Shown: positions 1 through 9,581, numbered from the stretch's first letter. The stretch is 9,581 nucleotides of DNA from Bacteroidota bacterium (GCA_013696965.1 JACCXN010000036.1:1-9581); one strand, 5' to 3'. Notes: generated from the letters alone by a model not told the origin. A program made the numbers and translations.

Positions 1-185
1 CTTTTTGGTATGGCTTTCCGATAAATATTACAAATCTCGTCCCATGGAATGAGGTTTGCCAAAATAACCCATCGATTATCTGAATTTAATTTTTTTTCGA
101 ATGGGGACTCAAATCCTTCTAAAACCAACTGGTTTTTACTAACATAATTTGGAATTGGTGCACGCTTTTTTGGTGGTTTCTTCAT
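1..185 (-). CDS. Transposase, IS1182/IS5-like, N-terminal part (cut by window edge)
   Basis: The minus strand reads from an ATG at 185-183 as an open frame of 61 codons to the window edge. It begins MKKPPKKRAPIPNYVSKNQL, followed by a segment with GFESPFEKKL and NRWVILANLIPWDEI. The pattern 'QL..GFE.PF...L...NRWV.L...IPWDE' is the usual N-terminus of DDE transposases of the IS1182/IS5-like group, ahead of the catalytic domain, which would lie outside the window. The purine-rich AAGGAAAT just before the ATG supports this start. The product would act as a DNA-binding and strand-transfer enzyme for its own element. Only the first ~60 of an expected 450-550 residues are visible, so whether the gene is intact is unknown. 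The identification rests on recalled family pattern, not a search. Confidence 0.75.
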   Translation of the reverse strand, partial: MKKPPKKRAPIPNYVSKNQLVLEGFESPFEKKLNSDNRWVILANLIPWDEICNIYRKAIPK

Positions 186-246
186 ATTTCCTTGCACTTG
201 ATGTGCCGAATATAGGTATGTTTGTCTGATTTACAAAGTGATAGGT

Positions 247-262
247 GTTTTTCAGCAGACCC
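247..262 (-). repeat. Probable terminal inverted repeat of the IS
   Basis: Read on the minus strand this is GGGTCTGCTGAAAAAC, about 60 nt upstream of the transposase start. A GGGTCTGCTGAAAAA-type terminus is common in IS1182-like elements, so the outer end of the element is placed near 262. The matching repeat at the other end lies outside the window, so neither the end nor a target duplication can be confirmed. Confidence 0.5.
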
Positions 263-405
263 TATTTAAAAAGCAATATATTTAAAAAACATACTATCTT
301 TTTTGTATTTATGGTTTCGCCATCTATCATCCTTATAAAAAACACACATGGTGAACAATGTAATAAATCTATTGAAAGACTATTATCTAAAATATGAGGA
401 TTTGG

Positions 406-559
406 CTATCCTAATTTACCTATTGAATTATAAATTAAGATTGTTCCTAATAATTGACCAACAACCTGATTATTTTGGTTAAATAATGGAGAGCTCCTGA
501 TGATCCAGGTTCTACAGCACCTTGATTAAAATGCAATCTCCACATTGGTCTGTCAAAGG
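406..559 (-). pseudogene. Remnant of a trypsin-like serine protease (active-site serine region)
   Basis: The minus strand encodes WRLHFNQGAVEPGSSG. Then, in another frame, it encodes SPLFNQNNQVVGQLLGT, followed by a stop at 408-406. Joined, these give the GxxEPGSSGSPLFNQ...VVGQL block around the catalytic serine of secreted S1 proteases of the lysyl-endopeptidase type, which Bacteroidota often export by T9SS. The frame break falls at about 489-496, where removing two bases (GC) restores GSSGSPLF. No catalytic His or Asp region, signal peptide or downstream domain is recognisable on either side. It is therefore a fragment lying between an IS end and the propeller gene, probably left by deletion. 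The family reading is good for such a short stretch, but the extent is approximate. Confidence 0.6.
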
Positions 560-594
560 AAGGGGAATATGCATTTTGTTTAAGAATTACACTT
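560..594 (-). repeat. Direct repeat copy A (copy of the propeller gene leader and start)
   Basis: This ~34-nt stretch matches 2238-2270 with one substitution and one single-base indel. On the minus strand it reads AAGTGTAATTCTTAAACAA, then AATGCATATTCCCCT. It lies about 26 nt beyond the stop codon of the propeller gene and runs directly into the protease remnant. Confidence 0.8.
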
Positions 595-619
595 GTTGAT
601 TTTCATGCTTAAATGCAAT

Positions 620-2251
620 TCAATTAACAACAATTCTTCTAACGGCTCTTTTTCTATCTGCAATTATTTCTATGAAATAAATTCCTTTGGCGTGCTTATT
701 CATGTCAATAAATCTTTCATAATCACCTTTAACTCCGAAAATATTTTCTGTATAAATTTTCTGCCCCTTTGAATTAATTATGTTTAGCTGTAAATCACAG
801 GACTCAGGTAAATTACATTCGATCTGGAAAGTGCCGCTTGTTGGATTTGGATAAATATTACACGAGAGTAAGGATCTATCTGAAAATTCATTTACACCTA
901 TTATAGCTTGTGTTGTATCATATTTGATCTTAATCAAAAACACTTCATCGTCACCTGTCAATGAAAGAGATCCGAGAGTAAAGTTTCCTCCAAACGCACC
1001 CGTAACATACAGATCGCCTTGCTCGTTACCAACTAAATCTATACCATGACCACCACCGCCATAAGATCCTTTCACCCATTTTAAACTACCATCAGTATCA
1101 TAATTTGCTAAGAACACATCAATACCACCGCTTGTTGAATAGATTGTTTGATTGTCAAATACTGCATGACCGGTACTACCTCCCGAACCAAAATATCCTG
1201 TAATAAATATATTTCCGTTGTTGTCTGCGTATAGTTCCCTCAGTATATCGATGCCGTTACCTCCCGCAGTTTTTACCCATTGGCAATTACCTACACTATC
1301 ATATTTAGCAATAAAAATGTCACTTGCACAATTCATAGGAGAAGTAATACTTATTGTATCAAAATACGAAACAGAAGAACCCGTATAGGCACCATAATAT
1401 CCTCCAATAAAGATTTCTCCTTTGCTATTTACATCAATGGCTTTAGGTGATTCAGTATCAGAGCCCTTAATTGTTTTTACCCATTGTAGATTAGCGTTAG
1501 GGTCATATTTGGCTAAAAAGCCATCGAAATTTCCGCTGCTTACAATCTGTAAGGAATCTGTAATATATTGAGTCCCTCCGAAATTACCTGTAGTATAAAT
1601 ATTTCCTTTTTTATCCAAACACATATCAAAAGTCTGAATCATTGAAACATGACAAAAAAATTCTTTCACCCATAAAAAAGTTCCATCAGAAGCATACTTA
1701 GCGATAAAAGCCTCTTTTTGCATCGCATACCCTTCAAATAAAGAATCTTTCCAGCAATATCCGGCAATATAAACTTCATCATTCTGATTTATGCAAATTT
1801 CATGAGGTGTACTATGTTTTATTATTGGTTTACTGAACAATAAATTTCCATTCAGATCATATTTCATAAAGTACATTCCCCCATTGGTTAGCATAGCCCC
1901 TTCATATTGCATGTTTCCGCTATAATAACCAGAGACAAAAACATTCCCATTTCCGTCAACGGCATTTATTGCACTGATAGCCATATGTTTTGAATAAAAT
2001 ATTTTCTGCCATTTTAAATTACCCACACTGTCGTATTTCAAAATAAAACCACCCATATCAGTTGAATCAGGTTGGTGATATGGCCCGGTAAAGCTGCCCG
2101 AAACAATCACATCGTTATCTTTTGAATTTGAGATCGACCAGCCATAGCTGTTCCGTGAAAATTTTTTACTCCTTGCCCATTCAAAGGAAGACTGAGCAAG
2201 CCCTGATGAAACATATAAAAAAAGAAAATATAAGAAAAGGGGAATACGCAT
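620..2251 (-). CDS. Secreted SBBP-type beta-propeller protein with T9SS sorting domain
   Basis: I choose the ATG at 2251-2249 (543 residues). It starts a clear signal peptide, MRIPLFLYFLFLYVSSGLAQ, whereas the open frame upstream to 2395 encodes nothing export-like. The mature part is a series of propeller blades. Each has a strand such as 'G.I.ITGYF.G' followed by 'FLAKYD..GNLQWVK'. The YD..G.L.W elements start near residues 73, 131, 186, 249, 317 and 384, which suggests a six- or seven-bladed SBBP-like propeller. Residues ~464-543 are a T9SS type A C-terminal domain (NIYPNPTSG, then NSKGQKIY, KGIYFIEI and a basic RKRAVRRIVVN tail). The protein should therefore cross the outer membrane by T9SS and be released or anchored at the surface, probably as a binding or scaffold protein; no catalytic motif is visible. 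It is transcribed divergently from the glycoside-hydrolase gene. No Shine-Dalgarno is seen, as usual in this phylum. Confidence 0.9.
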   Translation of the reverse strand: MRIPLFLYFLFLYVSSGLAQSSFEWARSKKFSRNSYGWSISNSKDNDVIVSGSFTGPYHQPDSTDMGGFILKYDSVGNLKWQKIFYSKHMAISAINAVDGNGNVFVSGYYSGNMQYEGAMLTNGGMYFMKYDLNGNLLFSKPIIKHSTPHEICINQNDEVYIAGYCWKDSLFEGYAMQKEAFIAKYASDGTFLWVKEFFCHVSMIQTFDMCLDKKGNIYTTGNFGGTQYITDSLQIVSSGNFDGFLAKYDPNANLQWVKTIKGSDTESPKAIDVNSKGEIFIGGYYGAYTGSSVSYFDTISITSPMNCASDIFIAKYDSVGNCQWVKTAGGNGIDILRELYADNNGNIFITGYFGSGGSTGHAVFDNQTIYSTSGGIDVFLANYDTDGSLKWVKGSYGGGGHGIDLVGNEQGDLYVTGAFGGNFTLGSLSLTGDDEVFLIKIKYDTTQAIIGVNEFSDRSLLSCNIYPNPTSGTFQIECNLPESCDLQLNIINSKGQKIYTENIFGVKGDYERFIDMNKHAKGIYFIEIIADRKRAVRRIVVN

Positions 2252-2270
2252 TTGTTTAAGAATTACACTT
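2238..2270 (-). repeat. Direct repeat copy B (over the propeller gene start codon)
   Basis: This copy covers the first codons and the untranslated leader of the propeller gene and matches 560-594 almost exactly. Together the two copies bracket the whole gene in direct orientation. Confidence 0.8.
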
Positions 2271-2278
2271 TTAATACC

Positions 2279-2286
2279 CAAAAATA
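2279..2286 (-). promoter_or_regulatory. Possible -7 element for the propeller gene
   Basis: The minus strand reads TATTTTTG, a match to the Bacteroidota -7 consensus TAnnTTTG, 28 nt upstream of the chosen start. The -33 region is poor (TTTTC rather than TTTG, with 23 nt spacing), so this is tentative. The 171-nt divergent region 2252-2422 must carry promoters for both genes. Confidence 0.3.
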
Positions 2287-2422
2287 TTGCCTTAATATGT
2301 AGCTTTAGTGAAAATGCCGCTAAAAGGCTGCATTGAAGAGTCAAACACCATAAAATGTTCGACAGTTGTTGGAAGTGTGATTTATTATTGTACATTTATT
2401 TCCTCAAATAAAACCCCAAAAC

Positions 2423-3358
2423 ATGAAAAAAACTCTCTACTTTCTGATTTTTATAGGATTAATAGGGCCTGCAAAGGAAACTGCTGCCCAACCTATTTCG
2501 CAAGTATTTTATGCTCAAAACTACTGGATGCCAAATAAACCTGCATTTGGTTTCACTGGTCAATTAGAAAGCTGGTGGACGGAAATTAACGCAAGTGGCG
2601 TAAAATATATACGTGTCGGAGGTAAAGCTTATGACGGATCAGGAATGTGGCCGATTCCAACATTATTAGGAATTATAGATACTATCAGAGCCAGAGGCTT
2701 TGAGCCGATAATACAGGTTCCAATAAAGATTAATCTATCAGTGGCTCAAAATGCTATAGATAATGCGGCAATAATATCTGATATAAATGTGACTAATGCA
2801 AAAAATATAGTTTATTGGGAAATAGGAAATGAACCGGATGGTTCTTATTCAGGTGTAAATAATTATCACACCAATCCGATAATTGCTGATTACATCAAGC
2901 AGGTTTCAACAGCCATGAAAGGAGTTCTTGGCCAATCGGGCATAAAAATAATCGGGCCATGTTTGTCTTACTATGATTTTCCCAAATATGCTTCCTTTCT
3001 GGGTGGTGCAGATAACATTACAGGTTCGGGTGCAAATGGATATTACATCGATTATGTTGGGTTTAACACTTATCCTTTCAGTAAAGCTCAATTACAGGCG
3101 GGAACTGCCCGACAGGACATTATAAACTATGTTAACTCTCCGTTTCAATTTGACGATATTTTAGATACCATTAATGCCCGCATTGCCCTGGTGGGAAGAA
3201 CAGGTAGTTTAAAGCCTTTTGTTACAGAAGTTAATATAAGCGCTTATCAGGATAATACCAACGCAACTACACGTGGGCCAATCGGTGTTGGACCGAAGTT
3301 TTTTAGGAGGACAATTTTGGGCGGAAATGATGGCAAAAGGAATGGAAAAGCAAGTTGA
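2423..3358 (+). CDS. Secreted glycoside-hydrolase-like protein, N-terminal catalytic part (frame broken)
   Basis: The ATG at 2423 begins the signal peptide MKKTLYFLIFIGLIGPAKET with cleavage likely after AAQ (residue ~23). What follows looks like a clan GH-A type TIM-barrel hydrolase. NIVYWEIGNEPDGS places a probable acid/base Glu at residue 137. LKPFVTEVNIS places a probable nucleophile Glu at 269. YVGFNTYPF lies between them. Such enzymes cleave glycosidic bonds in polysaccharides, but the family (GH5/30/39/79-like) and substrate cannot be fixed by eye. Meaningful sequence ends at Lys292 (3298). Beyond it the frame gives an arginine- and glycine-rich nonsense tail to the stop at 3358, while the true continuation is in the next frame from 3300. 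Joined, the gene runs 2423-5801 and would encode 1125 residues. Confidence 0.85.
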   Translation: MKKTLYFLIFIGLIGPAKETAAQPISQVFYAQNYWMPNKPAFGFTGQLESWWTEINASGVKYIRVGGKAYDGSGMWPIPTLLGIIDTIRARGFEPIIQVPIKINLSVAQNAIDNAAIISDINVTNAKNIVYWEIGNEPDGSYSGVNNYHTNPIIADYIKQVSTAMKGVLGQSGIKIIGPCLSYYDFPKYASFLGGADNITGSGANGYYIDYVGFNTYPFSKAQLQAGTARQDIINYVNSPFQFDDILDTINARIALVGRTGSLKPFVTEVNISAYQDNTNATTRGPIGVGPKFFRRTILGGNDGKRNGKAS

Positions 3359-5801
3359 ATCAATGGCTTTTTGGAGCGTTATAGAAGGAGAGCCGGGAGA
3401 TACATACGAAACTGATATAGGTTACATTGGAACAGAACTATTACAGAAACGATCTACTTATTGGCACTACAAAATGATGGCCGACAACTTTAAGGGCACA
3501 TTTTTTCCTTCAGTAAGCGTAAATCAACCAAATATAAAAGCTTTTGCCGCTAAATCTTCTGATCGCATAGTTGTAATGATTTTAAACGAGCAAAACTCCG
3601 GCAGCTTGGCATTTAAAGTAAGATTGGACAACACGGGCTCGGTTGGGGCAGGATTAGATATTGCATTTAACGTTACAGGCGCTACCGCAGGAGCAAACCA
3701 TGTAAGTACAGTTAATATCCAAAATCAATCAACCGTTTTGCTTATTTTCAACTGTAAGGGCGCAATATCTGAGCGGTATGATTATACTTTGAGTAACGCG
3801 ATAAACGATCAGGGACCCCAAACAATCACCATTCCAGTAGCAACTTCATTAATTGGTGCAACGATTTCAAATGATATTGGCAATGCGCAACTTTGCTCTT
3901 CCGGTGGAGTTTGCAGTTTTTTTAATTATACTCCTTCAAATTATGTTTATAGTTGGACAAGCCCTTATGGACCCGTTAATTATACCGGCAATTCCGTGGA
4001 ATATTGCTCTTTAGTTGTAGGAGGTCAAACAATTTATACATTTACAGCAACTGATCCTTCTACCACATGTTCTACAACTCAAAATGTAACTGTAAATGAT
4101 TGTGGTCCAATTACCGGCTTTGATTTTTATGCATATGTTTGCGGTGCAACACCTTCTAATTGTGGTGCTAATAATGGAGGCGCTATGGTTTGCGCAGGAG
4201 GAGCATCAACTTATAGCTATAAATGGGACGGAGGTGCTTATGGTACTAACTCTTCAATTACCGGATTATCACCTGGAATGCATACAGTTGTTGTTAAAAA
4301 CGCACCGCCTGCTATTGGTGGTTTAACAAGAACTTTACAGTTTTATGTTCCTATTACAGGAACTCAACCTGCTATTAGTGCAGGCCCAGACAGAACTATT
4401 GGCAGGTTCTGCCGTGTAATTCTCACCGCAGTGCCAAATTTAACTTCAAGTGGGTATACCTATAATTGGTACAAAGGAACCTCTACAACTCCATTTAGCA
4501 ATTCCTATACAACTAATATCAGTGTTTGGAATACAGCTACCTATAAAGTCGTGGTTACTTCACCAAGTGGATGCACTAATTCTGATTATGTAAATATAAA
4601 CATGACTCTTACACCACGTTGCATCACTGATTTACCAAGTATAAGCACTGCTATTGAATGCAAATACAATATAGGCTCAGGCGGACCTTTGCCTCCTGTT
4701 AATGTGTTAAACTCATCAGTAATTATTAATTCTGATCAGTTCATTGACAATGTTACTATAGTGCCGAACAATGTTAACCTTACCGTTATTGATTGTGAGC
4801 TGGCGTTTTCTGAAAACTCAAAAATAATTGTTCTGCCAGGAGGAAAGTTAGAAATCCGAAACTCTTTTTTTCATGGTTGTGAAAATTTAAAATGGGGCGG
4901 TATAGAGGTTAAAGGAAACAATAACGTTTCAGATCAATTAATTGTAACGGGATCAGCTTTTGCAAACACAGACTATGTAATAAAAACAGATAAAACCTTG
5001 AATATTTATATTGAGGATAATATTTTCGCCAATGGAATTACCGCCATAGAGTTGGATAGAAATAAAGATTTCGTGATAAGAAATAATTATTTTTACAATT
5101 ATGATATCGCTATAAAGGCTTCCAGGACACCTGTTGCAAATGTTCGATCACTTATAAAGGAAAATATTTTTGAGAAGGTGAAAACTGCCATTTATTTTGA
5201 AAATGATAACCAGTCGAAGTTAGATATCGTATGTAATAAATTCGACAACTATGAAGATTATGCAATTTATGCTCAAAATACAATACTAAAAGATCAGGGT
5301 AGTAATATTGAAGCAGGAAATTCTTTTGTTTCAACTTCTGTAAAGTTAAATCATAAGTTACGCCATAATGGTAATACTATGAATTATTATTATGATCCAT
5401 CAAATCCTGTTACACTCGTTACTTCAGGTGGTATGAGTGCTATTGCCCAAGCCGCCTCTTCGGATGGTACTTGTTCAGATATTAATGACAGACGTAGTAA
5501 TCCTAATCCGAATGTAGGAAGTGATCCTGTTTATGGAAACTCAAAGAGTAAATTAGATCTTTATTCTGCGCCAAATCCGAATTCAGGAGAAGCAACAATT
5601 TATTATAACTTGGGTGAAGAAAAACAAGGAACATTAACAATAATGGATATGTATGGAAATGTGATGAATTGCATAAAAGTAACGAGTGAATCCAATCAAG
5701 TTAATTCTGATTACAGCAATTATTCTTCCGGAATCTATATGATTTCATTAACGAATTCGAAAAGTGAAGTAATTAACAAAAAGATGATTATAGCAAAATA
5801 A
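3273..5801 (+). CDS. Continuation of the glycoside-hydrolase-like protein: Ig, SprB-like, beta-helix and T9SS domains
   Basis: This is the downstream part of the gene starting at 2423, in the +1 frame. The joined protein enters at 3300 (FLGGQFWAEMMAKG). The codons at 3273-3299 are only an open overlap, and neither the GTG at 3273 nor the ATG at 3327 looks like a natural start. In joined numbering: the end of the barrel and a beta-sandwich run to ~445; an Ig/PKD-like domain covers ~473-558; a SprB-like repeat covers ~558-628 (YKWDGG, TGLSPGMHTVVVKN); a second Ig-like domain covers ~648-729; a right-handed beta-helix covers ~758-973 (repeated NSFFHGC, DNIFANG, NNYFYNY and ENIFEKV turns); and a T9SS type A tail covers ~1045-1125 (YSAPNPNSGE, SSGIYMISL, NKKMIIAK). 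The product should be surface-bound or released, combining a glycan-cleaving head with binding or adhesive modules. Without a frame correction this part has no signal peptide and would not be exported. Confidence 0.8.
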   Translation: MGQSVLDRSFLGGQFWAEMMAKGMEKQVESMAFWSVIEGEPGDTYETDIGYIGTELLQKRSTYWHYKMMADNFKGTFFPSVSVNQPNIKAFAAKSSDRIVVMILNEQNSGSLAFKVRLDNTGSVGAGLDIAFNVTGATAGANHVSTVNIQNQSTVLLIFNCKGAISERYDYTLSNAINDQGPQTITIPVATSLIGATISNDIGNAQLCSSGGVCSFFNYTPSNYVYSWTSPYGPVNYTGNSVEYCSLVVGGQTIYTFTATDPSTTCSTTQNVTVNDCGPITGFDFYAYVCGATPSNCGANNGGAMVCAGGASTYSYKWDGGAYGTNSSITGLSPGMHTVVVKNAPPAIGGLTRTLQFYVPITGTQPAISAGPDRTIGRFCRVILTAVPNLTSSGYTYNWYKGTSTTPFSNSYTTNISVWNTATYKVVVTSPSGCTNSDYVNINMTLTPRCITDLPSISTAIECKYNIGSGGPLPPVNVLNSSVIINSDQFIDNVTIVPNNVNLTVIDCELAFSENSKIIVLPGGKLEIRNSFFHGCENLKWGGIEVKGNNNVSDQLIVTGSAFANTDYVIKTDKTLNIYIEDNIFANGITAIELDRNKDFVIRNNYFYNYDIAIKASRTPVANVRSLIKENIFEKVKTAIYFENDNQSKLDIVCNKFDNYEDYAIYAQNTILKDQGSNIEAGNSFVSTSVKLNHKLRHNGNTMNYYYDPSNPVTLVTSGGMSAIAQAASSDGTCSDINDRRSNPNPNVGSDPVYGNSKSKLDLYSAPNPNSGEATIYYNLGEEKQGTLTIMDMYGNVMNCIKVTSESNQVNSDYSNYSSGIYMISLTNSKSEVINKKMIIAK
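3299..3304 (+). other. Frameshift site in a T6 run
   Basis: The bases AAG TTTTTT AGGAGG contain six T. With five T the frame reads K-F-L-G-G-Q-F-W and joins both halves of the glycoside-hydrolase gene without loss of sense. The simplest reading is a one-base insertion (a mutation or a sequencing/assembly error). Confidence 0.8.
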
Positions 5802-5823
5802 TTCCTATTTTTATTCTAATTTT

Positions 5824-5852
5824 AAAAGCCGCTAAAAAAAAGCGGCTTTTTT
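5824..5852 (+). terminator. Rho-independent terminator
   Basis: The arms AAAAGCCGCT and AGCGGCTTTT form a perfect 10-bp stem around a loop of seven A, followed by further T. It lies 22 nt after the stop of the glycoside-hydrolase gene. The A run on the left arm means it could also act on the minus strand. Confidence 0.9.
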
Positions 5853-6005
5853 CTTATAATATAAAGAATGTTAATGTTTACAGGGATTCTTCTACTATTT
5901 GAAAGTAATTAAAAAGACTATTTTTGTTCAGATTGGATTTGCTTTTCACAAATTGCTTATTGTTCCTTGTTAAAAGGTTTTACCATCAACAGATCCTTTT
6001 GTCTT

Positions 6006-6081
6006 ATTTCCAATTATACGTGCCATAAGCTTTGTTTCACAATAAAACTCCCCAGAAAACGTATTTATTATAATTGGAAAT
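6006..6081. repeat. 13-bp perfect inverted repeat with 50-nt spacer
   Basis: ATTTCCAATTATA at 6006-6018 is exactly complementary to TATAATTGGAAAT at 6069-6081. No T run follows, so it is not a simple terminator. Its role is unknown. Confidence 0.6.
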
Positions 6082-6180
6082 CGCTTTAAAAAAAACTTTG
6101 CATTCGTGTAATCTGCTACCCTTAGTCCCACAATGATTTCCAAGGGTATTCGGGTCAAAAAATAATTAAATATTTCTTTT

Positions 6181-6256
6181 ACTCCGTACATACTCCTTGT
6201 TATCTGCCTGTTATCTCCCTATTACTTCATTCTAACTTTAACATTACTAAATCTAA
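6181..6256. repeat. Degenerate 11-bp phased tandem repeat
   Basis: About seven units with an 11-bp step (one of 10): ACTCCGTACAT, ACTCCTTGTT, ATCTGCCTGTT, ATCTCCCTATT, ACTTCATTCTA, ACTTTAACATT, ACTAAATCTAA. The minus-strand core is roughly AACAGGGAGT and the match decays toward the right. Such helical-turn spacing could mark a protein-binding array or curved DNA, but no function can be read from it. Confidence 0.5.
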
Positions 6257-6345
6257 GTGGCATGACAGACCTAAGACAAACCAAACTGTAAGGAATTATG
6301 ACCCCCATAAAAATTCACTACTAACCATAAAAGTTTGGAACGAAA

Positions 6346-6710
6346 ACCCTTGCGCACAGGTAAGCACATTCACAATTCCCTCAAAAATCCATCCCACAAA
6401 CCAAAAATTGTAAATAAGCTTCCCTCTTCCTTCCCCAGGCTAGATTTCAATTTTTTTACCCCTCCCTTTTAAAAAAACAAAACACCCAAACACACTGAGC
6501 CCCTGTCACTGTACAATACGTTGTGCAATTTGAAAGTAATGCAAACTTCCTAGACAAGTGGGTAATGCCAACGGCTAACATTGCATATCCTCAAGTGGCG
6601 GTCTTGGTGCTCTATTCAAAGCCTGGAATTTCTATTAACTTTGCTGCTCACGGTTTTTGGTTCGGTGCAATAATCGCCACCTGGGTATATGCAAAAAACG
6701 TTAGCCGTAA
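6346..6710 (+). repeat. Long dispersed repeat, copy 1
   Basis: This copy is homologous to 9105-9468 in direct orientation. Shared blocks include CAAAAATTGTAAATAAGCTT (6402-6421), a pyrimidine-rich patch, CCTGTCACT, and the whole 6558-6680 part with few changes. The left edge is fuzzy (CGCAC..GGT...AGCACATT in both). The right edge is sharp, just past GTTAGCCGTAA. The 68-codon open frame crossing it is destroyed in copy 2 by a TAG and a one-base indel, so the repeat is non-coding. Confidence 0.85.
6571..6708 (+). repeat. attC-like palindromic site, copy 1
   Basis: Outer arms ACGGCTAAC (6571-6579) and GTTAGCCGT (6700-6708) are perfectly complementary. Inside them TTGCATAT (6581-6588) pairs with ATATGCAA (6687-6694), and GTGGCG (6595-6600) pairs with CGCCAC (6675-6680). 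Unequal bulges separate the arms, and the loop is ~74 nt. This two-box layout, with a GTT-type 3' core and mirrored 5' core, resembles integron attC sites such as the Vibrio VCR. The core GTTAGCC departs from GTTRRRY at one base. No integrase is in the window. Confidence 0.5.
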
Positions 6711-7033
6711 GCATTGCGGGGCGGTATGACAGACGTGACATTCAGCCTTTTTCATTAAGCAACTTTTCTGCAAATTTAGAACGTTCAGGGCAGCCCTTCG
6801 CTTCGTGCTTTTTTCCTTTTTATCCCCCCACAAAATATTAAAATTGCCAGCCCCAAAATTGCACATTTGTTTTTGCCGCCTCCCATAAAGCTGACACACA
6901 TTGGCAAAATCAAAAGAGCAATTTCCCTGCGCAAGTTTCTGCTTTTTTTAGTATTATTGTTACTTTGGTGGTTGACTTTAGAAAAAACATTATTTTTACA
7001 ATAATAATTAAAAACAGACAATTTCAATTTTTT
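6711..7033 (+). promoter_or_regulatory. Unique spacer between repeat copy 1 and the TPR gene, with possible promoter
   Basis: No gene is supported here; open frames on the minus strand have no recognisable sequence or start signals. Sequence similarity to the other repeat copy ends at the left edge. The best promoter candidate is TATTATTG at 6952-6959, one base from the -7 consensus TAnnTTTG, about 75 nt ahead of the TPR start. No clear -33 element is seen. If the block is a cassette, its genes would need such an internal promoter. Confidence 0.3.
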
Positions 7034-8062
7034 ATGGTCACATTTTCACTCAAAGGAAATCAAACAAGAAAAAGCAAGAATTCTTCTATTTTACAATTTT
7101 TTATAATTCTTTTCACATTAACCTTTCAATTAGCCTCATTTGGACAATCATCAAAAGACTCTGTAGATGTATACCAGGCACCTTCAATGCGTCTGATTAA
7201 AATAAATGATGATAATAAAGAAGTTAGCAATGTTGAAATTGGAAAATCCATTTTAATAATTTATCATAAAAAAAACAAATCATTTATCATAAATTATAAA
7301 GATGAAAAAAATGAAGGTAAAGATTTAAAATTGACATTTGTAAGTGCGACTAAGGAACCTAATTATTATATAATGAAAGATATTAAAGGGAATAACTCTT
7401 ATGTCGATAATCAACTAGAGGGCTTAAAAACATTAGCAATTTTACCAGAAAAAAAAGATGGGGATTATGCTTTAATAGTTTTAATTAAAGATGCTGTTAA
7501 GCTTAAAAACTTAACAGCTGAAGAACATTTAAGTAATGGTCTTACTAAACTAAAGGAAGGTGATATTACAAATGCGATAATAGATTTTGATAAAGCCATA
7601 GAACTTAACCCAAAATTAGAAGTAGCATATGATTATAGGGGATTAGCAAAGGTGCAAAGTGGTGATTTAGTTGGTGCAATTCAAGATTATAACTCGGTAA
7701 TAGAAATTAATCCAAAGAACAGAGAAATTTATCCATACAGGGGATATGTTAAACAACAACTGAAAGATTATCGTGGAGCGATTCTGGACTATACAAAATC
7801 AATTGAGTTAAATGTAGAAAATATAGAAATGATATATCTTAATCGAGGCGTAGCAAAGGAAAAATTAAAAGATTACCAAGGTGCAATTAGAGATTACACA
7901 AAAGCCATTGAGATTAATCCTAAAAATAATCTAGCCTACCTAAATCGAGGTCTTATTTATGTACATTTGGACAATAAAGAAGCTGCGTGTATAGACTTTA
8001 GCAAAGCTGGCGAACTTGGAGAAAAAGAGGGATATGAAAATATTTTGAAATTTTGTCAATAA
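7034..8062 (+). CDS. Exported TPR-repeat protein
   Basis: I use the ATG at 7034 (342 residues) because the open frame upstream has only a TTG at 6965. A basic N-region (KGNQTRKSKN) leads into the hydrophobic stretch SSILQFFIILFTLTFQLASF, ending FGQ at ~38, so a signal peptide is likely. Residues ~45-155 form an unrecognised lysine-rich beta domain. Residues ~161-331 hold about five TPR units with the standard signature (G.A...L.DY.GAI.DYTKAIEINPKN..AY.NRG). TPR arrays bind partner proteins, so this is likely a periplasmic scaffold or chaperone-like protein. It has no T9SS tail. It lies 135 nt ahead of the next gene, in the same direction, and both sit between the two long repeats. The name is certain only at domain level. 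Confidence 0.85.
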   Translation: MVTFSLKGNQTRKSKNSSILQFFIILFTLTFQLASFGQSSKDSVDVYQAPSMRLIKINDDNKEVSNVEIGKSILIIYHKKNKSFIINYKDEKNEGKDLKLTFVSATKEPNYYIMKDIKGNNSYVDNQLEGLKTLAILPEKKDGDYALIVLIKDAVKLKNLTAEEHLSNGLTKLKEGDITNAIIDFDKAIELNPKLEVAYDYRGLAKVQSGDLVGAIQDYNSVIEINPKNREIYPYRGYVKQQLKDYRGAILDYTKSIELNVENIEMIYLNRGVAKEKLKDYQGAIRDYTKAIEINPKNNLAYLNRGLIYVHLDNKEAACIDFSKAGELGEKEGYENILKFCQ

Positions 8063-8197
8063 GTGTAAAACGACAATAATTTATTTAATATTAATGAAGC
8101 AATTTATATATTTAGAAAAGTGATATAAAAAGTAGCTCAATTTCCTTGCTAATAAAAATTACAAATTGACATAAAAAAAAACTATAACAATAAAATT

Positions 8198-9046
8198 ATG
8201 ATGAATATTGAAGAATATGTAAAAACAGAAAAATCTAATTATTATATCCCTTTCATTTTTCCAAATAGAAATATAATTGAGGGTTTAATGAAATATGATT
8301 CTTTCTTAGATAAAATATTCCAAAGTAATCCTTTCATAATATTGATAGGGAAGGATTTAAAAGAACTTTTAACAACTGATTTTTACACAGATGAAATACT
8401 GTTATTGCAGTTCGAAAATAATCACAAAAAAAAAGCTGAAATAAAAAAAGAGTTAAAATTTTATAGGGAACAATATTATATAGAAAACGAAAAGGAATTT
8501 GAAAAATTGAAGTCCTGGTCGGGTAATTACAAAAGCTTGTTAAACATTAACCCATACTTATTTTTTTCAATTTATAACAATATTTATGTTGAAGTCATTT
8601 TAAAATCAAGTCAAAGATATTCATTAAAAAATTTATTTAATAAAATATCCTACGCACATTTTAATTTCAATGATTATGGATCTGGTGAAGGTGACCTTTA
8701 CTTTGACCAACAATATATTTTATGTATACCAAATATTTATTATTGTTCATTGCCTGAAAAGACAATACTAACGTCTCAAAATTTAAATTTTGGAAAATAT
8801 GAATTTAAAACATTAACTGAATTATATCATCAAGACAATAGCTATATTGATTGGTTAATTAATACCACTTCCTATTGCATATTAGATTTTCAAAAGCTCT
8901 ATCACTTTGACGAATTAGAAAGAAATCATTATTTAAGCGAGGAATCTCTTATATTGAATTTTGCTAAATCATTGCATTATGCATTAATGTTAAAACAAAA
9001 CGATATAATAGAACAGGGGCTAAATGACAATATGTATGAATTCTAA
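8198..9046 (+). CDS. Unrecognised protein with ExoX-like C-terminal motif
   Basis: This gene encodes 282 residues, very AT-rich and asparagine/tyrosine-rich, with no signal peptide or membrane segment, so probably cytoplasmic. I do not recognise the N-terminal ~190 residues; there is a charged, helix-prone stretch at ~72-106 (NNHKKKAEIKKELKFYREQY). Residues ~198-240 read FGKYEFKTLTEL, then HQDNSYIDWLINTTSY. This follows the pattern 'FGKYKGKTL.EI...D.SYI.W' of the small ExoX-like C-terminal domain found on exonuclease X-type and various phage or accessory proteins. The nuclease core itself is not visible. The start may be the first or second ATG (8198 or 8201); the leader is A-rich with no Shine-Dalgarno. 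It is the last gene before repeat copy 2, and no terminator follows. Confidence 0.7.
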   Translation: MMNIEEYVKTEKSNYYIPFIFPNRNIIEGLMKYDSFLDKIFQSNPFIILIGKDLKELLTTDFYTDEILLLQFENNHKKKAEIKKELKFYREQYYIENEKEFEKLKSWSGNYKSLLNINPYLFFSIYNNIYVEVILKSSQRYSLKNLFNKISYAHFNFNDYGSGEGDLYFDQQYILCIPNIYYCSLPEKTILTSQNLNFGKYEFKTLTELYHQDNSYIDWLINTTSYCILDFQKLYHFDELERNHYLSEESLILNFAKSLHYALMLKQNDIIEQGLNDNMYEF

Positions 9047-9104
9047 TAATTAGTAATCTAAAAAATAGCTACTTTGAAGAGTGTGCAAAATTAACGGTTG
9101 AGCT

Positions 9105-9468
9105 TTCCACGCACGGTTTCAGCACATTTCCAATTCACACTAATCTCCCCTCAAAAGCCAAAAATTGTAAATAAGCTTCCCCCTTTCCTAAAGAAGAATT
9201 TTAATATTTTCCTCCCCTCACAAAAAAAGGAAAAAAACACGCTAACCCGCAGAAAGCCTGTCACTATTCATTGACGTTACACTGCAATTCGCAATTAATC
9301 GTAGTGATCTAGAAAAGTGGGTAATGCCAACGGCTAACACTGCATATTCGCCAGTGGCGGTCTAGGTGCTCTATTGCAAAGCCTGGAATTTCTATTAACT
9401 TTGCTGCTCACGGTTTTTGGTTCGGTGCAACAATCGCCACCAGCGTATATGCAGAAACCGTTGGGCGT
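9105..9468 (+). repeat. Long dispersed repeat, copy 2
   Basis: This is the direct-orientation partner of 6346-6710, beginning about 58 nt after the stop of the 282-residue gene. The first ~200 nt are diverged with islands of identity (9158-9181 is identical to 6401-6424). The last ~140 nt are about 91% identical (12 substitutions, one indel by my hand alignment). Similarity ends just after GTTGGGCGTAA. Confidence 0.85.
9330..9468 (+). repeat. attC-like palindromic site, copy 2
   Basis: The 5' core is ACGGCTAAC (9330-9338) and the 3' core is GTTGGGC (9460-9466), which fits GTTRRRY exactly. Inner arms are CTGCATAT (9340-9347) with ATATGCAG (9447-9454), CGC (9349-9351) with GCG (9443-9445), and GTGGCG (9354-9359) with CGCCAC (9435-9440). 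The 5' core GGCTAAC is complementary to GTTAGCC, the junction that begins the preceding block at 6700, rather than to its own 3' neighbour, as expected for a linear cassette array. Confidence 0.5.
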
Positions 9469-9581
9469 AATGCGTGCATTCAAAAAATTCGGATTTGAAA
9501 CCGTAATTACTTTCGAAAAATTTTAAGATTTTAGTTGATATTTCTAATATTCAAACCCTGTTGATTAAGTCAAATCCTTGA

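Follow-up and report, generated by a model that had tools for sequence, protein, structure and literature searches.

The 9581-bp window analysed here, an entire contig (C36) of a 3.86-Mb Bacteroidota draft genome in 106 contigs, carries two genes between two direct copies of a long palindromic site, and raises the question of whether these genes form an integron-like gene cassette and, if so, which enzyme moves it. A first-pass annotation, made from the window alone, had proposed such a cassette. The window very probably carries one cassette of a chromosomal array of the integron type, in which a tyrosine recombinase encoded at the head of the array joins cassettes to an attI-like point and can also remove them. 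The cassette interpretation is supported by arrays elsewhere in the genome, by the array-head recombinase and by breaks at the GTT core.

The two copies, correctly recognised at the outset as direct palindromic repeats, are 91% identical over 6550-6616/9309-9375 and 93% identical over 6617-6710/9377-9470, with a spacing of 2759-2760 bp. Similarity between them extends from about 6363 to 6710 (78% over 354 nt) and, as had been noticed, ends just past the 3' core; the GTT cores occupy 6700-6702 and 9460-9462. When cassette limits are set by the integron convention, with the cut between G and TT, exactly the 2760-nt cassette of the first-pass annotation is recovered. Its site of 138 nt is a real repeat, although the inner conserved unit, running from AAC to GTT, comprises 126-127 nt. 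The two cargo genes do differ in base composition from their surroundings, with a G+C fraction of 0.26 at 7000-9060 vs 0.35 at 1-6576. Longer family-specific termini extend past the site (6363-6576, 9121-9335 and 6703-6960 in the window), and occur also on contigs C50, C96, C63 and C15.

If the site delimits cassettes, further copies should separate unique genes elsewhere in the genome. BLAST revealed 32 copies in the source genome, and a covariance model built from 28 of its sites revealed 52. Many of them lie in same-strand runs, about 0.3 to several kb apart, with unrelated genes between them, and thus form tandem arrays of diverse cassettes in one orientation, as in integrons. Aligned copies agree from AAC to GTT and diverge outside, and many contigs of this genome terminate exactly inside a site. 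An Rfam scan of the window gave nothing above the gathering scores, and no attC family was matched. Many near-identical palindromic copies might also be expected of a dispersed repeat, similar to miniature inverted-repeat transposable elements (MITE) or repetitive extragenic palindromes (REP), lying between genes and marking no cassette boundary.

Since both ends of an integron cassette derive from one circular molecule, its opening bases pair with those immediately preceding the AAC of its own site. The window cassette follows this rule (GTTAGCCGTaaGC at 6700 against GTTAGCCGTtgGC read backwards from 9338). For 20 cassettes of the source genome, the start matched its own end at 7.25 of 10 positions on average, and other pairings gave 3.98; for 65 cassettes from 13 other assemblies the values were 7.66 and 3.51, and in both sets none of 20,000 permutations was as good. 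In those 13 assemblies, the sequences on either side of a single site agreed at 3.38 of 10 positions. Counted by position in 77 of the 85 cassettes (eight poorly matching ones among the 65 were omitted, which makes the percentages somewhat flattering), start and end agree in 94-99% of cases at positions 1-9, while every start has A at position 11, which pairs with the end in just 3%; one fixed unpaired A therefore belongs to the site. The start of a cassette is complementary to its own R'' box with a G/TT boundary, as in integrons. MITE- or REP-like copies would be inserted without relation to the intervening DNA, and do not predict that the DNA following one copy pairs with the DNA preceding the next, as is true of nearly all cassettes. 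On C68 of the source genome (G000), two matching arms lie 21 kb apart (5073-26277) with no site detected between them; this region is either a very large cassette or contains sites too divergent for detection.

The site itself appears to be kept by its folded structure, as attC is, and not by its sequence. Compensatory changes on both sides were found in 12 of 17 inner stem pairs, 97.3% of the cells pair, and none of 500 shuffles reached any of five covariation measures. Both window copies fold better than shuffles; as single-stranded DNA, site 1 folds best as the bottom strand (-24.9 kcal/mol, z -4.8, vs -20.3 kcal/mol, z -2.6, for the top strand). Integron recombination through the attC bottom strand is established (PMC2727003). 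The GTTRRRY/RYYYAAC core consensus of integrons, in contrast, does not hold here: the GTTRRRY core named in the first-pass annotation is present in only 2 of 77 cassette starts, and GTTR in 76 of 77.

Breakpoints in other genomes, which the annotation expected at the core, were indeed found there. A mercury-type cassette of 1317 bp occurs in four genomes of four families (G077, G081, G097 and G048) at 96.6-98.1% identity and with differing neighbours, and identity drops to background at CGTT on both sides. Its genes are predicted to encode an ArsR-type regulator, a MerT/MerP-like membrane protein and a small cysteine-rich protein; a comparison of this cassette with plasmids gave no match. In the source genome, the cassette of about 395 nt that begins at the right end of the window (C36) follows different sites on C12, C4 and C14. 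Neither whole-cassette transfer with GTT breaks nor the shared orientation of sites downstream of a recombinase, described below, is predicted by a dispersed repeat, which end pairing and cassette transfer already refute unless both are artefacts; that explanation is almost certainly wrong.

No integrase gene lies in the window, as had been stated, but this is not true of the genome, where a search for intI or another tyrosine recombinase revealed two IntI-like recombinases heading arrays on other contigs. The first (C44:131213-133153) comprises 646 aa and has its tyrosine recombinase part (PF00589, PF13495) at the C terminus. Its best NCBIfam family is the integron integrase TIGR02249 (223.6 bits, below the cut-off of 265), matched in two stretches with profile positions 178-239 absent; its XerC and XerD scores (161.8 and 156.6 bits) are below the respective cut-offs (335 and 329.6) and also below its own TIGR02249 score. 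The gene is oriented toward a site on the same strand, L041:8629-8755, at a distance of 1.47 kb. The second recombinase (C14:2321-3448, minus strand) has two sites after it, also on its own strand. At the head of the C44 array, the first cassette encodes, against the array direction (L041:7536-8255, minus strand), a protein of 239 aa with a DnaA C-terminal helix-turn-helix. Several more tyrosine recombinases are present in the genome, and one of them, XerCD-type or other, might move the array, with the head gene as a hitch-hiker. No site, however, was found near the six other tyrosine-recombinase loci searched in this genome, and it is specifically the head family that has attI and sites after it across Bacteroidota; the involvement of another host recombinase is therefore very unlikely.

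In 22 platforms, the first cassette starts 49-225 bp past the recombinase stop codon, the start being found only by matching it to the arm of the first site. It follows the motif tATAAAnnA, giving the consensus tATAAAnnA/GTTR (the slash marks the cassette start). From this shared motif, an attI point beside the integrase gene, as in integrons, can be predicted. On C44, the start arm GTTATAAGCaaGCCT, located 139 bp past the stop codon, matches the end arm of the site L041:8629-8755 and marks the predicted attI point. Contig ends fall within 700 bp of the recombinase on its downstream side at 16 of the named Bacteroidota loci and on its upstream side at one; in the draft genomes G142, G083 and G140, the contig stops at GTT itself. 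Since assemblers stop where paths part, such contig ends hint, and do so only suggestively, that the first cassette varied within the population sequenced.

The recombinases of these arrays differ from integron integrases in one domain. In the alignment to the Vibrio cholerae integrase VchIntIA (PDB 2a3v), the query fragment jumps from residue 187 to 212, while the integron integrase spans 179-246. The corresponding stretch has 70-71 residues in all array-type Bacteroidota recombinases aligned and 112 in IntI1 and in the IntI of genome G141; by alignment, the insertion of about 41 residues is the IntI-specific additional domain around patch III, which none of the aligned array-type enzymes carries. 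The recombinase is therefore of the integron type, yet lacks a defining feature of the IntI family. In an 'integron-like' subgroup of recombinases, conservation of the domain insertion is incomplete (PMC8138268). For a relative from Algoriphagus ornithinivorans, the predicted structure (predicted local distance difference test score 87.6, predicted template modelling score 0.57) has 2a3v as its top Foldseek E-value, with other tyrosine recombinases close behind. VIA-align places XerA (5hxy) above IntI (2a3v) by Z, but at a root mean square deviation of 14.6 A; this ranking of a model is read only as the common tyrosine-recombinase fold.

The distribution of sites and recombinases was analysed in 149 genomes of the same class (no genome of the same genus is among the relatives listed). 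Sites were detected in 79 of them with model R1 and in 102 with the broader model R2, and the recombinase (E<=1e-60) in 82, of which 74 also have sites. In a blind test, 80 named loci were gathered by recombinase sequence alone and then searched with R2: 46 of 48 sites (E<=1e-4, 24 loci) lie downstream on the strand of the recombinase, and the DNA searched in the Bacteroidota loci amounted to 469 kb upstream vs 236 kb downstream. Isolates are represented among these loci (Arundinibacter roseus, Flavobacterium aciduliphilum DSM 25663, Algoriphagus ornithinivorans DSM 15282, Winogradskyella ursingii, Algibacter onchidii and Zunongwangia mangrovi), and in the isolate Chryseobacterium sp. SNU WT5 the recombinase, with six sites downstream, resides on a closed plasmid. 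In G036, G081, G067 and G110, the recombinase points away from the array.

Since the anatomy of these cassettes is integron anatomy, they might be of the ordinary kind, with a canonical IntI acting on them in trans, as in clusters of attC sites without an integrase (CALIN), and the patch-less recombinase a bystander. The resistance gene blaVEB, which has a site of the Bacteroidota family, resides in class 1 integrons, and IntI1 therefore very likely handles that site. On the other hand, an IntI above the TIGR02249 cut-off was found in only one of the 149 genomes (G141) and not in the source genome, G141 has no R1 or R2 site at genome-wide thresholds, and it is the patch-less recombinase that heads the arrays. 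Service by a canonical IntI is accordingly considered unlikely. The IntI locus of G141 has one weak R2 match (19.8 bits; L221:2174-2295, minus strand), upstream of and divergent from intI (3295-4530, plus strand), and its flanking arms, judged by eye, obey the same start/end pairing rule.

The blaVEB cassette links this system with clinical resistance genes. Relatives of the recombinase were found directly upstream of blaVEB-3 on a Klebsiella michiganensis plasmid and of tet(X3) on an Acinetobacter indicus plasmid. In class 1 integrons, R2 matches the site of the blaVEB cassette (49.2 bits, E 1.6e-8) and none of the neighbouring attC sites; it also matched none of the canonical attC sites (aadA, aadB, arr-2, cmlA, aac), and the model is therefore specific. 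The mismatch at position 11 recurs in the blaVEB cassette ends, GTTAGCGGTAATTT and GTTAGCGGTAGTTT. One and the same GTT marks the beginning of this cassette in class 1 integrons (L246, L247), behind the recombinase (L244) and behind the attI-like ATATAAACTA (L248). Most simply, blaVEB would be a Bacteroidota-type cassette that entered class 1 integrons; the direction and timing of this transfer are inferred. In a custom class 1 array containing blaVEB-1, the junctions were at attI1, attC-aadB and attC-dfrA5 (PMC8024014), and that study is therefore in itself no proof that the blaVEB attC recombines. The tet(X3) gene was also considered as an intact cassette and rejected, its start and end arms matching poorly and its site being cut short; it remains a lead.

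The following mechanism may be proposed. Each cassette ends in a long imperfect palindrome (about 127 nt plus arms) that would act like attC. A free circular cassette would fold its site, the outer stem being complete only when its own two ends meet, and the array-head recombinase would join the folded site at GTT to the attI-like point, about 50-230 bp from the recombinase gene; removal would occur by recombination between two sites. Within the array, where each site borders a foreign cassette, little of the outer stem would remain, and capture may thereby be favoured over loss. Arrays, GTT boundaries, end pairing, stem compensation, the recombinase with its predicted attI at array heads and the transfer of whole cassettes can be read from the DNA itself. 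The substrate is probably a folded single strand, and the head recombinase is probably the enzyme, working without the IntI-specific domain. More broadly, it is likely, with somewhat less assurance than for the window cassette, that a widespread class of Bacteroidota integrons exists, whose integrase acts on folded attC without that domain and which exchanges cassettes, including blaVEB, with the class 1 integrons of pathogens.

Several points weigh against this view. The missing IntI-specific domain is cited as necessary for integron-mediated recombination (PMC9668308). The enzyme is linked to the sites only by position and co-occurrence, and the latter (odds ratio 12.9, p 1.6e-10) is not corrected for kinship. 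At the threshold used, 28 of 102 site-bearing genomes have no recombinase, and 8 of 82 show the reverse. The arm-matched start is more than 230 bp from the recombinase in some platforms, and some arrays (e.g. G144, L087) have no recombinase within the stretch examined. The recombinase tree, in which the C44 enzyme stands apart from the others, is weakly resolved and was not used as evidence, and the source genome is a fragmented draft.

The coordinates of the window features and of related cassettes are listed in the table. The sequence to the left of the window cassette (1..6700) is probably the cargo of a preceding larger cassette, whose start lies beyond the contig edge. It encodes a pair of secreted proteins (620-2395, minus strand; 2423-3358 and 3273-5801, plus strand), 26-29% identical to a pair in a 7.3-kb cassette on C28. 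The second protein is split over two frames; since its relative on C28 is a single frame of 1486 aa, the gene is either frameshifted or misassembled.

Table. Features of the window cassette, its neighbours and related cassettes in other records
Feature	Position	Strand	Remarks
Gene cassette, 2760 nt	6701..9460	+	Two genes and own 3' recombination site; first T of one GTT core to G of the next
attC-like site 1 (AAC...GTT), end of preceding cassette	6577..6702	+	Covariance model R1, 143.4 bits; covariation
attC-like site 2, end of window cassette	9336..9462	+	Covariance model R1, 148.4 bits
Cassette start arm GTTAGCCGTAAGC	6700..6712	+	Complementary to 9326-9338, conserved mismatch at position 11
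Cassette end arm GCCAACGGCTAAC	9326..9338	+	Pairs with start arm 6700-6712
Conserved 3' cassette terminus before site 1	6363..6576	+	Similarity to 9121-9335
Conserved 3' cassette terminus before site 2	9121..9335	+	Common to 6363-6576 and other cassettes
Cargo gene 1: 342-aa tetratricopeptide-repeat protein, N-terminal hydrophobic stretch	7034..8062	+	Pfam TPR_1, 2e-27
Cargo gene 2: 282-aa protein, ExoX-like_C motif the only recognised feature	8198..9046	+	Pfam PF20600, 2.4e-7
Start of next cassette (~395 nt)	9461..9581	+	Repeated after different sites on C12, C4, C14; continued on C68
Mercury-type cassette, 1317 bp	L225:11760-13196; L083, L081/L082 (minus); L093 (minus)		Three genes
Plasmid records with blaVEB/tet(X3) context	L244:7001-8763; L245:6001-8025; L246:3002-4074; L248:4001-5074		

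Integron surveys rely on an IntI with the special domain and on attC models, and have recorded hardly any integrons in Bacteroidota; for Bacteroidetes proper, IntegronFinder 2.0 lists a single complete one, that of Salinibacter ruber M1 (PMC9024848). About two thirds of the 149 genomes of the same class bear sites of the integron type. No description of such Bacteroidota arrays was found in the open-access papers searched, and an earlier description elsewhere is possible. If the reading given here is true, a major platform of gene exchange in a dominant bacterial phylum has been overlooked; the system would allow a direct test of the purpose of the IntI-specific domain, and points to a source of at least one clinical resistance cassette.

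Compared with known systems, the arrays are most similar to the IntI chromosomal integrons of Vibrio cholerae: both have an array of diverse cassettes, long palindromic sites that are nearly identical, G/TT limits and an attI (here predicted) by the integrase, and the best-scoring family of the recombinase is TIGR02249, with 2a3v giving its best Foldseek E-value. Unlike the Vibrio cholerae enzyme, the Bacteroidota recombinase is without the IntI-specific insertion of about 41 residues (70-71 vs 112 residues in the corresponding stretch), the core is GTTR and not GTTRRRY, the cassettes are often large (up to several kb), and the recombinase gene often reads toward the array. The system would work like an integron, but is not filed as an IntI integron because it lacks the IntI domain, stays below the TIGR02249 cut-off and does not have the GTTRRRY core. 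The blaVEB cassette of class 1 integrons resembles the Bacteroidota system in that its attC is matched by the site model and that it is found also behind a patch-less recombinase and such an attI; it differs in lying among ordinary cassettes whose attC sites the model misses. Acinetobacter plasmids with the xerD-tet(X3)-ISCR2 region have, upstream of tet(X3), a relative of the recombinase that shares 53% identity with the enzyme of Flavobacterium aciduliphilum, but this relative is truncated, and an apparent half-site after tet(X3) is unmatched by the model. The 'integron-like' simple tyrosine recombinases include patch-less members, which the available part of PMC8138268 does not tie to cassette arrays or attC-like sites such as those described here.

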